Assembly (NCBI GenBank): GCA_012523465.1
Contig: JAAYIK010000012.1
Coordinates: 1 to 64,000 of the forward strand
Source: Lysobacteraceae bacterium
GTDB taxonomy: Bacteria; Pseudomonadota; Gammaproteobacteria; Nitrococcales; AK92
DNA length: 64,000 bases
Reading direction: 5' to 3'
In this document: piece after piece, positions 47,881 through 61,857 of the stretch
Layout of the letters: every line of letters starts with the position of its first letter
Position numbering within the stretch: the stretch's first letter is position 1
Notes under the pieces: model-generated
Databases searched by the model: none
Seen by the model: the letters and a program-made list of their open reading frames with translations, nothing else
What the model was told of the DNA's origin: nothing
Program-made: the position numbers and the translations under genes

Positions 47881-49506
47881 CTAGCCCAGCTCCCGTGCCC
47901 GCTGTCGCAGCACGAACTTCTGGATCTTGCCGGTCGAGGTCTTGGGCAGCTCGCCGAAGATCACCGTGCGAGGCGCCTTGAAGTGCGCCATGTTTTCGCG
48001 GCAGAAATCGATGATCTCCTGCTCGGTCGCCTGCATGCCGTCCTTGAGCGCGATGAAGGCGCAGGGACTCTCTCCCCATTTGGGATCCGGCCGCGCCACC
48101 ACCGCCGCCTCCAACACCGCTGGGTGGCGGTAGAGCACGTTCTCGACCTCGATGGAGGAGATGTTCTCGCCGCCCGAGATGATGATGTCCTTGGAGCGGT
48201 CGCGGATTTCGATGTAGCCGTCGGGGTGCCAGACAGCAAGGTCGCCGCTGTGGAACCAGCCGCCGCGGAAGGCTTCGTCGGTGGCCTCCTTGTTCTTGAG
48301 GTATCCCTTCATCACGTTGTTGCCGCGCATGAAGACCTCTCCCATGGTCTTGCCGTCGCGCGGCACCGGCTCCAGGGTATCGGGGTCCGCTACCATCAGC
48401 CCCTCCAGCACCTGATAGCGCACGCCCTGGCGCGCCTTGAGCTGCGCTCGCTGCTCTTCCGGCTCGGCATCCCACTCCCGGTGCCAAGCGCACACAGTAG
48501 ACGGGCCGTAGGTCTCGGTGAGACCGTAGACATGGGTCACTTCGATGCCCATGGCCTCGACCCCGGCGATGACCGCAGCTGGCGGCGCGGCGCCCGCTGT
48601 CATCGCCTTGACCGAGTGCTGCAGCTTTCGCCTGTGCTCCTCGGGCGCATTCAGCAGGCTGTTGAGCACAATGGGCGCGCCGCAGAAATGGGTCACCCCG
48701 TGCTCACTGATCGCGCTCAACACCGCTTCCGGCTGCACCTTGCGCAGGCAGACATGGGTGCCGGCGACCGCGGTCACCGCCCAGGGGAAGCACCAGCCGT
48801 TGCAATGGAACATCGGCAGCGTCCACAGATAGACCGGATGCTGCGGCAACGACCACACCAGGACGTTGCCCAGGGCGCTGAGGTAGGCGCCGCGGTGGTG
48901 GTAGACCACGCCCTTGGGCTTGCCGGTAGTGCCGGAGGTGTAGTTGAGGCTAATGGCCTCCCACTCGTCAGCCGGCCCCTGCCAGGCGAAGTCCGGGTCG
49001 CCTTCGGCGATGAAGGCTTCGTAGTCGAGCTCCCCCAGCAGCTCCCCCGCCGGCGCCAGCGGATCGTCGACATCGATCACCAGCGGCTTGCGCTCGACCA
49101 GCTCCAGGGCGCGAGCGATGGTGCCGGAGAACTCGCGGTCGGTGATCAGGGCCTTGGCCTGGCCGTGGTCCAGCATATAGGCGATGGCCTCGGGATCCAG
49201 GCGCACGTTGAGCGTGTTCAGCACCGCACCGGCCATGGGCACGCCGAAATGGGCCTCCACCATTTCGGGGATGTTGGGCAGCATGACCGCCACCGTATCG
49301 CCCTTGCCGATGCCGCGCCGGGTCAGTGCCGAGGCCAGCTGCCGACAGCGCCGGTAGGTCTCCCGCCAGGTGCGCCTCACCTCGCCATGGATGACGGCGA
49401 TGCGCTCTGGATAGACGCTGGCAGACCACTCGATGAAAGTCAGCGGTGAGAGCGGCACATAATTGGCCTGCGTGCGCTCAAGTCCCTGATCGTAAACGCT
49501 CTGCAT
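47881..49506 (-). CDS. Acyl-CoA synthetase (AMP-forming), medium/long-chain type
   Basis: 541 residues with GGAGGAG upstream of ATG. The AMP-binding motif YTSGTTGKPKGVVYHHRG is near residues 184-201, then FHCNGWCFPW, the YGLTETYGPS motif, YRDR-type hinge EIRDRSKDIIISGGENIS and a C-terminal lysine in LPKTSTGKIQKF. It activates fatty or other carboxylic acids as CoA thioesters in two steps. Chain length is not predictable. Its upstream region carries the DnaA boxes, and its 3' end faces napC across the long inverted repeat. Confidence 0.9.
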   Translation of the reverse strand: MQSVYDQGLERTQANYVPLSPLTFIEWSASVYPERIAVIHGEVRRTWRETYRRCRQLASALTRRGIGKGDTVAVMLPNIPEMVEAHFGVPMAGAVLNTLNVRLDPEAIAYMLDHGQAKALITDREFSGTIARALELVERKPLVIDVDDPLAPAGELLGELDYEAFIAEGDPDFAWQGPADEWEAISLNYTSGTTGKPKGVVYHHRGAYLSALGNVLVWSLPQHPVYLWTLPMFHCNGWCFPWAVTAVAGTHVCLRKVQPEAVLSAISEHGVTHFCGAPIVLNSLLNAPEEHRRKLQHSVKAMTAGAAPPAAVIAGVEAMGIEVTHVYGLTETYGPSTVCAWHREWDAEPEEQRAQLKARQGVRYQVLEGLMVADPDTLEPVPRDGKTMGEVFMRGNNVMKGYLKNKEATDEAFRGGWFHSGDLAVWHPDGYIEIRDRSKDIIISGGENISSIEVENVLYRHPAVLEAAVVARPDPKWGESPCAFIALKDGMQATEQEIIDFCRENMAHFKAPRTVIFGELPKTSTGKIQKFVLRQRARELG

Positions 49507-49611
49507 ATCTTCTCCTCCTTAGTACCGCCTGTGGCCGGCTTTCTACAGCCTAGACCCGGTTCCGCGAACTCGCCAGGCAGGCGCCGGCACCCGTCCCCGA
49601 GCGCTGACCGG

Positions 49612-55529: not shown

Positions 55530-57338
55530 CTATTTTCCAAGGTTTTCGTTTACCTCATCTTTAAAGGTTTTTCTTTGACGCTCCTTTTGCACAGCATCCT
55601 GCTGTGTACGTCCGCTCCTAGTAGCACTACTTTCAGCAATCTTGTGATCCGTCGGCACCCCCAGCGCGGCGGCCTGCTCGGCGTCGGTGCGGGCACGGCG
55701 TGTGCTGCCGCCGCCGCCACCATCAGGGCCACCAGCCTTGTTGCCGTTAGGCACGCCGGGATCGCCGGTGCGGTTGATCGAAAGCGCACTCTGTGAAGCG
55801 GTGCCGGAGCTATGCACCGCCGCAATGACGCCAGCGCGCACATTACTCTCGGCTTCCTTCTCACCCAGCTGCTCGCTGCCGCCGCCAAGCCAGCGCATCG
55901 CCCGCTCCGCAATCAAGCTAATGAGTTCAAAGGAGCGGTGGGCAGTCACCACGATCATATGCACCATGATGCCGATCATAAAGATCGCCCCGACGATGCC
56001 GGTCGTGTGCTCACCATTGAGTAGCTCATAGACCGTGGGGATAAAAGTCAACTTGAGGAACTTAAAGAGGGCATGCATCACCAGCATGGCAAGATACAGC
56101 CCGAACAGCATCAAGGTCGGGCGCGAGAGGACATTGAGCAGCAGCATGTAGCCGTTGCGGGCATGGTGCCCCGCAATCCCCTCGCCTTCCGGCATTGAGT
56201 GCGCCGCCGCCCAAATCGGGGCGGCCACCACGGACTCGACCACCATCATGATCCGGCCCGCAATACCGAAGTACCACAGGATGTACGGCACCATCGGCAC
56301 GTAATAGGCGAGCGTGCCGCCGAAGGCCATCATCGGGAACCAGGTCAGCAGGACGATGACCCAGAACTTTTCCATAATCTTGGCGATGGCATTGAGCGAG
56401 CCATCCAGCCCGGTCAGCGAGGACGCCAATTTGACGTAGAAGGTATCCTGTGCGCCCGTGGTTATCGCCAGAAGACCCAGATAGGCAATCATGACCGCCC
56501 AGCCGATATTAAGAATCTGGTGCCCCATGTCCATGATGGCAAGCTCTGGGGCTTCGCGATCGTTCATAAAGGAAGTGATCTTCTCCGCCAGCCAGGGCGC
56601 AAAGTTGATCGCGCTTGTGACCTTATCGAGCGCTTTCGAGAGAATCCCGTCATCACCGCTCATCGAGGTAATGCCGGTCTGCTGCGTGGCAAAGGCACGG
56701 CTTCGCGCGCTGCCGCTAAGCAAATCGTAAACATCATCGGCGACATAGCGCTCGAAGAAGTTGTTGACCCGACTCATCGTCTGGGCCAAGCCTTCCTGCA
56801 CGCGCAGCGCCTTGATCTTGCCAATATCGGGCGCATCGATGGTAATGCCCGGCACCACGAAACGCTTGAGGGTTTCGTTGAGGCGGTTGTTCTCGATGTA
56901 CCAGGCGCCAGCCAGAATGAAGCCAAACTCCTGCGAGCGGTGCGTGAAGTCATCGAGCCGCTGCTGATTACGCGCATCGACGGCCTGGTAAATGCTGGAG
57001 GCAAGCCGCCCCATCGCCTGCTCGTAGTTGTCCGCCACCCGCTCGATAAGGCCCCGGTGCGCTTCGTGGAATTCCGACAGCGACCGCCCGCTGCGTGCTG
57101 CCGCCTGCGCCAGCGGATTGAGCGCTCGAATCATCCGCTCCAGGGCGTCCTTCTGCTGTTGGTGGACACTGGCGAGCTGATCCGAGAGCACATCAACGCC
57201 ACCGCTTACCCCCGATTGGGCAAAAGTGGGCGTGACCAGCTTAAGCTGAATGCTGCCGCAGGCTCCCGGCTCAATGCCGGACTTCTCCAGCCGCAGGCCC
57301 CGCTCGCCTGACCGTTCCTGCCGCTGGCGCTCGGCCAC
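55530..57338 (-). pseudogene. DotA/TraY-family conjugation protein, N-terminally truncated
   Basis: 602 open codons, with DotA/TraY homology from about codon 20 (57281) to the end. Periplasmic N-terminal part (QQQKDALERMIRALNPLAQA), then a cluster of membrane helices with the family's conserved FPMMAFGGTLAYYVPMVPYI, AAPIWAAAHSMPEGEGIAG and YMLLLNVLSRPTLMLFGLYL segments, and a hydrophilic Gly/Ser/Arg-rich tail. TraY/DotA is the large inner-membrane protein of type IVB secretion/IncI-type conjugation. The expected signal peptide and first part are missing; near 57281-57345 the frame runs into host-like DNA. No other transfer gene is present. Confidence 0.8.
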
Positions 57339-57453: not shown

Positions 57454-57711
57454 ATGGATTGTCGCGTCGGCTGCGGGGCCTGCTGCATTGCCCCGTCCAT
57501 CACCTCATCAATACCGGGCATGCCCGCGGGCAAGCCCGCCGGCGTGCGCTGCGTGCAGCTCGATGCCGGCAACCGCTGCCTGCTGTTCGGCGATCCGCGC
57601 CGGCCGGCGGTTTGCAGCCGCCTGCAGCCCTCGCCCGACATGTGCGGCGCCAGCCGCGCCGAGGCGATGCGGCTACTGGCGGCACTAGAGCGGGCCACGG
57701 CGCCCGGCTGA
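57454..57711 (+). CDS. YkgJ-type cysteine-cluster protein
   Basis: 85 residues; GGAGGA nine bases before ATG. The YkgJ/CxxCxxCC zinc/iron-cluster pattern is C3, C7, C10, C11, then C33, C42, C54 and C64 ([15 protein letters not shown] opening; [17 protein letters not shown] later). Shorter than E. coli YkgJ (109) but complete in its core. Function is unknown; metal binding is likely. It lies just right of the truncated traY gene and 12 bases from the convergent LysR-type gene. Confidence 0.8.
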
Positions 57712-57723
57712 GGCGTGTGGCGG

Positions 57724-58650
57724 TCAGGCCGGCCAGAACTCGGTGTCCTTGGCCATTTCCGCCCGCAACCATTCGACGAAGGCGATGACGGTCGGCTGCT
57801 GCCGACTGCCAGGCGGGAACACCAGGTAGTAGTCGCCGCGCCCAGCCAGCACCAGGTCGAAGGGCTTGACCAGCCGTCCGGAGCGCAGATGCTCGCCGAT
57901 CAGGGCCATGTGCCCCAGGCCCACGCCACGGCCGGCGATGGCCTCTTGCATCACCAACTGCATATCGCTGAAATGCAGCCCGCGCTGGCCGTCCACGCCC
58001 TCCACGCCGGCGGCATCGAGCCAGTCCTGCCAGGTGACGTGAAAGCCCGCCAGCGCCGTGCTCTCGTTATGCAGCAGGGTGTGGTAGCGCAGGTTCCTCG
58101 GGTCGGTGAGCGGATGCTCGCCTTCCATCAGCAGCGGCGAGCAGACCGGCGTCAGTCCGTCACGCCGCAGCAGCTCGCTGGTGAGTCCGGGGTAGTTGCC
58201 ACGGCCGTAGCGGATGATGACATCGAAGTTGTCTTGCTTGATGTCCGCCGGCCGCACCGTGGCAGCGATGCGGATGTCCAGGTCCGGATGCTCGGTGGCA
58301 AAGCTCCACAGCCGCGGCGCCAGCCACACGGCGGCGAAGCCGGGCGGGACGCTGACGTTGAGCACCCGCGCCTGCCCGGCGCGGCGGACGTAGTCGGTGG
58401 CCTCCGACAGCAGATCGAAGGCTTCGGTCAGCCGCGGCAGATAAGCCCGGCCGGCCGGCGTCAGCGACAGGCGGCGCGCATGGCGTTCGAACAGGGTCAC
58501 GTCCAGCCAGTTCTCCAGCGCCTTGACCTGCTGGCTGATCGCGGCCGGGGTCACATACAGTTCAGCCGCGGCCTTGGCGAAGCTTTCGTGCCGAGCCGCT
58601 GCTTCGAAGGCGCGCAAGGCGTTCAATGAAGGCAGTGAGCGCGAGGACAT
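57724..58650 (-). CDS. LysR-family regulator, GcvA-like
   Basis: 308 residues. The LysR helix-turn-helix is at residues 8-65 (LPSLNALRAFEAAARHESFAKAA, TPAAISQQVKALENWLDV) and the effector domain begins near 95 with VLNVSVPPGFAAVWLAPRL, as in GcvA. E. coli GcvA controls the glycine cleavage operon and the divergent small RNA gcvB. Here the gene is likewise divergent from a probable small RNA, starting 75 bases away. Confidence 0.88.
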   Translation of the reverse strand: MSSRSLPSLNALRAFEAAARHESFAKAAAELYVTPAAISQQVKALENWLDVTLFERHARRLSLTPAGRAYLPRLTEAFDLLSEATDYVRRAGQARVLNVSVPPGFAAVWLAPRLWSFATEHPDLDIRIAATVRPADIKQDNFDVIIRYGRGNYPGLTSELLRRDGLTPVCSPLLMEGEHPLTDPRNLRYHTLLHNESTALAGFHVTWQDWLDAAGVEGVDGQRGLHFSDMQLVMQEAIAGRGVGLGHMALIGEHLRSGRLVKPFDLVLAGRGDYYLVFPPGSRQQPTVIAFVEWLRAEMAKDTEFWPA

Positions 58651-58689
58651 GACTAAGATTATCTATGTCTTTTCTTTAGTTTTTCCAGT

Positions 58690-58718
58690 TTGCAGTGCAG
58701 CAAACACAAGGATAGATT
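58690..58718 (+). promoter_or_regulatory. Promoter of the candidate small RNA
   Basis: TTGCAG, a 17-base spacer, then TAGATT, giving a predicted start near 58725. This is a good sigma70 match in the AT-rich gap divergent from the GcvA-like gene. Confidence 0.6.
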
Positions 58719-58724
58719 AGCAGA

Positions 58725-58912
58725 CAATCGCTTAGCGGACAGCGTTGCGAGGCAAGGCAGAGCAGCTCTCCGGTGCAAGCCGGGCAGCCTGTCAGGAAGC
58801 GCAAAGGACGTTCAGACGTAGCCCCTCTTTGTTCAGAGCTTGTTGTTCTCCTCCCTGGCAGTTGGTTTTTTTGACTGCGGCGACCTTTCCCCCAAGGTCG
58901 CCTTCTTTTTTT
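58725..58912 (+). ncRNA. Candidate small regulatory RNA (GcvB-like by position)
   Basis: About 188 bases between a sigma70-like promoter and a strong terminator, with no credible coding frame (a 65-codon frame lacks a ribosome site and looks composition-driven). The body contains three GGA motifs (AGCGGACA, TCAGGAAG, AAAGGACG), a U/G-rich GCTTGTTGTTC stretch, and a small GCAGT/ACTGC hairpin with a T-rich loop before the terminator. Position, length and divergence from a GcvA-like gene match GcvB, but the base sequence does not clearly show the GcvB seed. A CsrA/RsmA-titrating RNA is an alternative. Confidence 0.5.
58879..58912 (+). terminator. Rho-independent terminator of the candidate small RNA
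   Basis: Stem GGCGACCTT / AAGGTCGCC with a six-base C-rich loop, followed by TTCTTTTTTT. Oriented for plus-strand transcription only: the minus side reads into an A-rich tract, so it does not serve recR. Confidence 0.9.
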
Positions 58913-58935: not shown

Positions 58936-59535
58936 TTATTGATAGCTCAGCCGGCCCGCAAATGCACGCGCCAGGGTGCCGCGATCGATGTACTCCAGCT
59001 CCCCTCCCAGCGGCACGCCGTGAGCGATGCGGGTAGCCTTGACGCCATGCGCGCGCGCCATCTCGGCAATGTACTGCGCCGTGGCCTCGCCTTCCACCGT
59101 CGGGTTGGTGGCCAGGATGACCTCCTCGACCTCGCCACCCTGCAAGCGCGCCTCCAGCTGATTGAGGCCCAGCTCGGTCGGCCCAATGCCGTCCAGCGGC
59201 GACAGGCGCCCCTTGAGCACGAAGTACAGCCCGCGGAAGTCAGTGGCCTGCTCCAGGGCATAGACATCGGCCGGGCTTTCCACCACGCACAGGACGCTGC
59301 GATCGCGCTTGGGATTAGCGCAAATCTGGCAGGTTTCCTGCTCCGACAGCGTGCGGCACTGGCGGCACTCGCCGATCCGCTCGATGGCCTGGAGCAGGGC
59401 CTCGGCTAGCCGCCGCCCGCCGGGCCGGTCGCGCTGCAGCAGCTGCAGGGCCATGCGCTGCGCCGACTTGGGCCCGACCCCGGGCAACACCCGCAAGGCT
59501 TCGATCAGGTTCTGCAGTAGCGGAGAAAAGGCCAT
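58936..59535 (-). CDS. recR: Recombination protein RecR
   Basis: 199 residues (E. coli 201). A helix-hairpin-helix at the start ([19 protein letters not shown]), the C4 zinc finger CRQC...CQIC around residues 57-72, and a Toprim domain with [16 protein letters not shown] and [19 protein letters not shown]. RecR with RecO/RecF loads RecA onto gapped DNA. Last gene of the dnaX-ybaB-recR operon, 14 bases after ybaB. Confidence 0.95.
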
Positions 59536-61744: not shown

Positions 61745-61857
61745 GGTGGCGGCAGCGCCAGCCACACCCCGGCGCCCGAGTCGACCGCTGCCGCTGCTTC
61801 CTTCCGGACCTGACGGGGTTCACGGTGTATCGTCGCGAGGGGACCGACGCCGCCGCC
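61745..61857 (-). ncRNA. ffs: Signal recognition particle RNA (4.5S type)
   Basis: The universal bacterial SRP core GTCAGGTCCGGAAGGAAGC is read on the minus strand at 61796-61814, with the GGAA tetraloop and asymmetric loop flanks. The outer ends pair (GGCGGC at about 61852-61857 with GCCGCC at 61748-61753). A run of five T on the minus strand (61739-61743) forms the terminator tail. Length near 113 fits the short bacterial form. It lies upstream of dnaX in the same direction, a known gene order. Confidence 0.92.

Follow-up and report, generated by a model that had tools for sequence, protein, structure and literature searches.

The window, a stretch of 64,000 nucleotides from a Lysobacteraceae genome (contig JAAYIK010000012.1), carries at 57724-58650 on the minus strand a gene for a LysR-type regulator. 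This regulator belongs to the GcvA subfamily, as judged by its match to NCBIfam PRK11139 (352.6 bits against a cut-off of 288) and by its orthologues, which agrees with the first-pass annotation of this DNA, and it is the putative activator of the RNA described here. A candidate gcvA promoter found by consensus scan (TGGAAA-18-GATAAT, 58658-58687, minus strand) stands back to back with the promoter of the RNA (58690-58718, plus strand), in which the -35 element TTGCAG (58690-58695) and the -10 element TAGATT (58713-58718) are separated by a 17-nt spacer, and whose arrangement and spacing are alike in five gcvA loci. From the positions of promoter and terminator we predict a small RNA of about 187 nt on the plus strand (58726-58912), its 5' end being an estimate that lies 7-8 nt past the -10 element. 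The RNA would end at an intrinsic terminator (58879-58912, plus strand; terminator scan and pair counts) that consists of a GC-rich 9-bp stem and a 6-nt loop followed by the U tract TTCTTTTTTT, and that has no T tract in the opposite direction. This terminator faces the 3' end of recR (58936-59535, minus strand), so that the RNA sits between gcvA and recR. The promoter, the non-coding stretch and the strong terminator had all been placed exactly at first pass.

Directly ahead of the terminator, folding and pair counts in four orthologues delimit a hairpin, GCAGUUGG-UUUUU-UUGACUGC (58858-58878, plus strand). The candidate seed, CUUGUUGUUCUCCUCCCUGGC (58839-58859, plus strand), contains at 58848-58855 the anti-Shine-Dalgarno core CUCCUCCC, and it was singled out because this core is conserved and because its complements are enriched at the starts of LivK-type genes. 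It overlaps the stretch GCTTGTTGTTC at 58838-58848, and the GUUGUUC that had been remarked upon earlier is indeed part of a region of interest, since GUUGUUCUCCUCCC is the candidate seed.

By itself, the promoter in the window is weak, matching 7 of the 12 consensus bases and going unreported by a promoter scan. The terminator scan would be expected to return 0.7 terminators of such a type in the region by chance, and the predicted fold of the RNA is of ordinary stability compared to shuffled sequences (z = -1.0). We nevertheless rate the unit above chance because it is conserved beside gcvA in five genomes. A translated small ORF, which the first-pass annotation had named as a competing possibility, did not appear: there is no ATG inside the predicted RNA, and no ORF is common to the orthologues at the five gcvA loci compared.

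Several other features were observed in the window. A bacterial small SRP RNA that scores above the Rfam gathering score lies upstream of dnaX (61753-61849, minus strand). An ORF past the 3' end of gcvA (57454-57711, plus strand) encodes a small CxxCxxCC protein with a zinc- or iron-chelating domain; such a protein is also found past the gcvA 3' end in a genome of another family (G005, L027:2382-2687, plus strand), in a different orientation relative to gcvA, which indicates a conserved neighbourhood. The 602-aa product of a gene at 55530-57338 (minus strand) contains several hydrophobic stretches but matches no Pfam family; by eye it resembles a TrbL/VirB6-like conjugation protein.

The comparison at gcvA covered the genome of the window (G000), a congener (G001), two members of the same family (G002 and G003) and the member of another family of the same order (G005), with gcvA orthologue identities of 84% for G001, 62-63% for G002 and G003, and 66% for G005. 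Outside the order, no GcvA of this clade was found at E 1e-100 in a class-wide sample of 370 genomes. At all five loci the promoter pattern TTG-N3-N17-TA-N3-T, which has a per-locus chance of about 0.6-1.2%, lies at a distance of 39-50 bases from the start codon of gcvA and is followed, after 149-199 nt, by a terminator of the GGCGA(C/U)CC type. The gene past the terminator is different each time (recR in the window, and GGDEF-like, patatin-like, NYN-like and recombinase-like genes, identified by eye from sequence, elsewhere), and therefore the RNA travels with gcvA and not with recR. A covariance model was built from the 3' modules of four loci, with G003 held out as a test because the alignment had misplaced its terminator; this model recovered the G003 RNA at its gcvA locus with an E-value of 0.006, as the sole match in that genome. 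Pairing in the two 3' helices amounts to 87% across the four sequences, with three pairs altered on both sides, and in the terminator helix 97% of cells are paired, with two pairs altered on both sides. Based on this shared synteny, promoter and terminator, the existence of a small RNA gene divergent from a GcvA-subfamily gene in five of five genomes, the arrangement of gcvB that had been invoked at first pass, is well supported at the level of the genome sequences. Since each of the five genomes has an hfq gene, the previously suggested link to Hfq is plausible.

Weak matches of the model were also seen in other families of the order (L031, L036, L038 and L044), where they correspond to terminators away from gcvA. 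Those in L031, L036 and L038 have a CUCCUCC stretch directly ahead of a strong terminator, and G006 (L044) has two weak matches about 170 bases apart (C3:260147-260199 and 260314-260365); these matches possibly represent another family of small RNAs with anti-Shine-Dalgarno stretches. In addition, an intergenic region of G003 (L010, about 1440-1530) that lies ahead of a response-regulator-like gene is closed by a similar terminator (GGCGCGG-TTTTCCCCCAA-CCGCGCC with a T tract) and could be another small RNA.

The best-conserved piece in the comparison with the congener is TTCTCCTCCCTGGCAGTTGG together with the terminator. The anti-Shine-Dalgarno core precedes the hairpin and terminator, and reads CUCCUCCC in G000, G001 and G003, and CUCUCCCC in G002 and G005. 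In the four other RNAs it is predicted to be unpaired (0.77-0.98). In the RNA of the window, by contrast, most of it is predicted to be paired (0.18 unpaired), which counts against the pairing proposed below and would call for opening by Hfq or with the help of the target. The conservation of the GUUGUU region, proposed earlier as a check, held only in part: the G/U-rich CUUGUUGUUC is not conserved in G002, G003 and G005. AACAA, which complements the GUUGUU next to the seed core, is enriched in LivK leaders (7 of 26 against 8 of 504). A second C/U-rich stretch of partly anti-Shine-Dalgarno character, CCCCUC (58822-58827), was noted upstream of the seed in the RNA of the window, and in the congener RNA (L009, minus strand) a second C/U-rich stretch, CCUCCUCC, lies in a predicted open loop.

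Candidate targets were sought with a pattern fixed in advance, namely the seed complement GGGAGGAG located 4-9 bases ahead of an ATG. This yielded 18 sites in G000, 16 in G001 and 14 in G003, compared to 0-3 for the reversed pattern, and the genes concerned include LivK-type binding proteins, a LivF/UrtE-like ATPase, a TRAP binding protein and rpoS. The corresponding search with GGGGAGAG in G002 pointed to an AgcS amino-acid carrier. Within the window itself, an acyl-CoA synthetase gene (47881-49518, minus strand; NCBIfam PRK08162, 985 bits) has AGGAGGAGAAG ahead of its ATG and is a predicted target. Two genes for TAXI-type TRAP substrate-binding proteins, the second of which was identified by eye, have GGAGGAG-type leaders with GAGAACA (L162:2602-3798, plus strand; L179 at 2183, minus strand).

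We then examined the leaders of LivK-type genes in the five genomes, as defined by a PF13458 census, against a background of genes from sampled genome stretches with heuristic start sites (504 genes, or 194 in a smaller sample). The core complement GGAGGAGA, an exact motif chosen after the leaders had been seen, is found ahead of 8 of 13 LivK-type starts in G000 and 6 of 13 in G001, two related genomes whose leaders are not independent of each other, compared to 7 of 504 background genes. In the related genome G007, where a search for gcvA orthologues found none at a comparable level, the motif precedes 4 of 309 genes. The median energy of pairing with the seed in G000 is -19.9 kcal/mol for the 13 LivK leaders and -14.5 kcal/mol for the 504 sampled genes (p = 1.6e-5), and 5 of 300 shuffled seeds matched the pairing of the real seed with LivK leaders. 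As for rpoS, the genes of G000 (L065), G001 (L107) and G003 (L109), each of which exceeds the RpoS equivalog cut-off, have GGGAGGAG, complementary to CUCCUCCC, 5-7 bases ahead of their ATG. It is thus possible that pairing between the RNA and rpoS links amino-acid status to the general stress sigma factor.

The sequences themselves show a gene unit that is conserved together with gcvA, and an excess of seed complements at the starts of LivK genes; from these we infer transcription, control by GcvA, binding of Hfq and repression of targets as follows. An RNA of about 187 nt would start at its own promoter, which stands back to back with that of gcvA, and would end at the intrinsic terminator; GcvA probably activates its synthesis when glycine or another amino acid provides a signal. 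Assisted by Hfq, the RNA would expose its C/U-rich seed GUUGUUCUCCUCCC for pairing with ribosome-binding sites rich in A and G (AGGAGGAGAA) in mRNAs that encode LivK-type amino-acid binding proteins, further proteins of uptake and catabolism and perhaps RpoS, and by covering these sites the pairing would block translation. The circuit and the class of targets would then be those of GcvB, and the pairing chemistry that of AbcR1/2. We give a probability of about 0.6 to this reading, in which a gcvA-linked, Hfq-assisted, trans-acting RNA represses the uptake of amino acids and organic acids with a GcvB-like action and an AbcR-type seed. More tentatively, with the odds somewhat against it, the seed may have been rewired: in a lineage without a detectable GcvB, the gcvA-divergent RNA would use the CUCCUCCC code of the LysR-linked AbcR RNAs of alphaproteobacteria, and most LivK leaders and rpoS would have evolved a matching extended Shine-Dalgarno sequence. 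If true, this would mean that an amino-acid uptake regulon has evolved convergently around LysR-linked RNAs with interchangeable seeds.

Alternatively, the RNA may descend directly from GcvB, having diverged past recognition and changed its seed while keeping its locus, as the suggestion of a distant GcvB at first pass implied. The divergent position, the similar length, the two 3' hairpins, the variable downstream gene and the predicted amino-acid uptake targets are all features of GcvB (PMC9409037), so the suggestion stands with respect to position and predicted target class. It finds no backing in the sequence, however, as the GcvB covariance model (RF00022) gave no match in the window at E-values up to 5, and none among 54 genomes of the order when E-values up to 0.1 were allowed, whereas the E. 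coli control scored above the cut-off. We regard such descent as conceivable, though less probable than not having occurred. In function it is compatible with a gcvA-linked repressor of uptake, which may have arisen by descent with a changed seed or by separate recruitment.

A further explanation, which we consider unlikely, accepts a real gcvA-linked RNA with other main targets and attributes the AGGAGGAGA in LivK leaders to strong ribosome-binding sites that this class of genes has in the lineage. Such an origin would fit the observation that the LivK leaders of G000 pair with 16S rRNA better than background genes do, and that the leaders of G002 and G003 sometimes carry the motif; in G002, GGAGGAGAA occurs in 2 of 7 leaders although the seed of that genome is CUCUCCCC, which counts against the pairing model, and a comparison in which seeds were swapped across genomes was only weakly diagonal. 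However, the enrichment persists among leaders that have a GGAGG core (GGAGGAGA in 8 of 8 LivK leaders against 7 of 121 in the background), and the pairing excess survives regression on 16S pairing (p = 0.0015, 194-gene sample). Moreover, the AGAA extension is not complementary to 16S rRNA, no LivK leader contains the 16S-like GGAGGTGA, and LivK genes of unrelated plasmids rarely have the motif GGAGGAGA (1 of 13).

That there is no RNA gene at all, and that the region is merely the control region of gcvA plus a terminator or the leader of a short ORF, would agree with the weak promoter and the unexceptional fold, but it is rendered very improbable by the directionality of the terminator, which points to the end of recR, by the lack of an ATG and of a common ORF, and by the conservation of the unit at five gcvA loci. 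Finally, we rejected the idea, also raised at first pass, of an RNA that sequesters CsrA (RsmA) or otherwise acts through multiple GGA motifs: the three GGA motifs of the window's RNA are present as described, but G001 has none and G005 one, only one of the three fits ANGGA, and the covariance search of the window with the Rsm/Csr families gave no match.

GcvB is a model multi-target RNA described in Enterobacteriaceae, Vibrio, Pasteurellaceae and relatives. The finding of a gcvA-divergent RNA beyond the reach of the GcvB model, with the same predicted role and another seed, suggests that the locus can keep its circuit while the pairing code changes, and would connect GcvB with the AbcR RNAs, which have until now been compared as analogues. 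For a little-studied lineage it also offers a rule, in that AGGAGGAGAA at ribosome-binding sites would mark the regulon, and a hint that the same RNA may couple the translation of rpoS to the supply of amino acids.

Among known RNAs, the 3' end resembles suhB/mmgR (RF00519) and alpha-r14 (RF02344), which share the succession of C/U-rich stretch, hairpin and terminator. Membership was rejected, as the scores lie well below gathering (RF00519, 24.9 bits here against 41; RF02344, 15.3 here and 24.4 in G001 against 58.8), and the resemblance is probably a convergence of 3' ends. Rfam searches at gathering and permissive thresholds gave only sub-threshold hits to suhB, alpha-r14, anti-hemB and CcsR1, all in the C/U-rich 3' end, and no AbcR-like family matched in the permissive scan of the window. 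The Neisseria RNAs NgncR_162/163 likewise control amino-acid uptake, together with serine/glycine metabolism, by blocking ribosome-binding sites (PMC9973317), but they are an adjacent sibling pair with no known linkage to gcvA.

The likeness to AbcR1 and AbcR2 of Rhizobiales lies in the seed. Their aSD1 is the identical octamer CUCCUCCC, found here at 58848-58855 and in G001 and G003 but not in G002 and G005, and it pairs with the ribosome-binding sites of mRNAs for ABC-transporter substrate-binding proteins, probably including livK; the LysR-type activator LsrB/VtlR adjoins, and LsrB activates AbcR1 (PMC8844928). In contrast to these tandem RNAs of 114-121 nt beside lsrB/vtlR, the RNA described here is a single one of about 187 nt encoded divergently from gcvA, with one RNA-model match in the genome and hence no tandem homologous copy. 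A second AbcR-type aSD, UUCCCCUC, was not found between the stem loops; the nearest equivalent by eye, CCCCUC, lies upstream of the first aSD and not between hairpins.

GcvB of Enterobacteriaceae, Vibrionaceae and Pasteurellaceae is likewise about 200 nt long and divergent from gcvA, with a variable downstream gene, an intrinsic terminator and amino-acid uptake targets, which here are predicted (PMC9409037, PMC1557403). The back-to-back candidate promoters recall the overlapping gcvA and gcvB promoters of E. coli (PMC5002191). CTAAT, the half-site of GcvA in E. coli, is absent at the gcvA loci examined here, so that the putative control of the RNA by GcvA is suggested by the gene arrangement alone. 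Furthermore, GcvB controls amino-acid uptake mostly through its G/U-rich R1 seed (PMC9409037), which pairs with C/A-rich leaders, whereas the seed here is a C/U-rich anti-Shine-Dalgarno sequence. A literature search, which covered subscription journals thinly, returned no published gcvA-divergent RNA with such a seed. Formally, the RNA belongs to neither GcvB nor AbcR. Small RNAs beside their own LysR regulator are already known, and the gcvA-divergent RNA described here is a variant of those.
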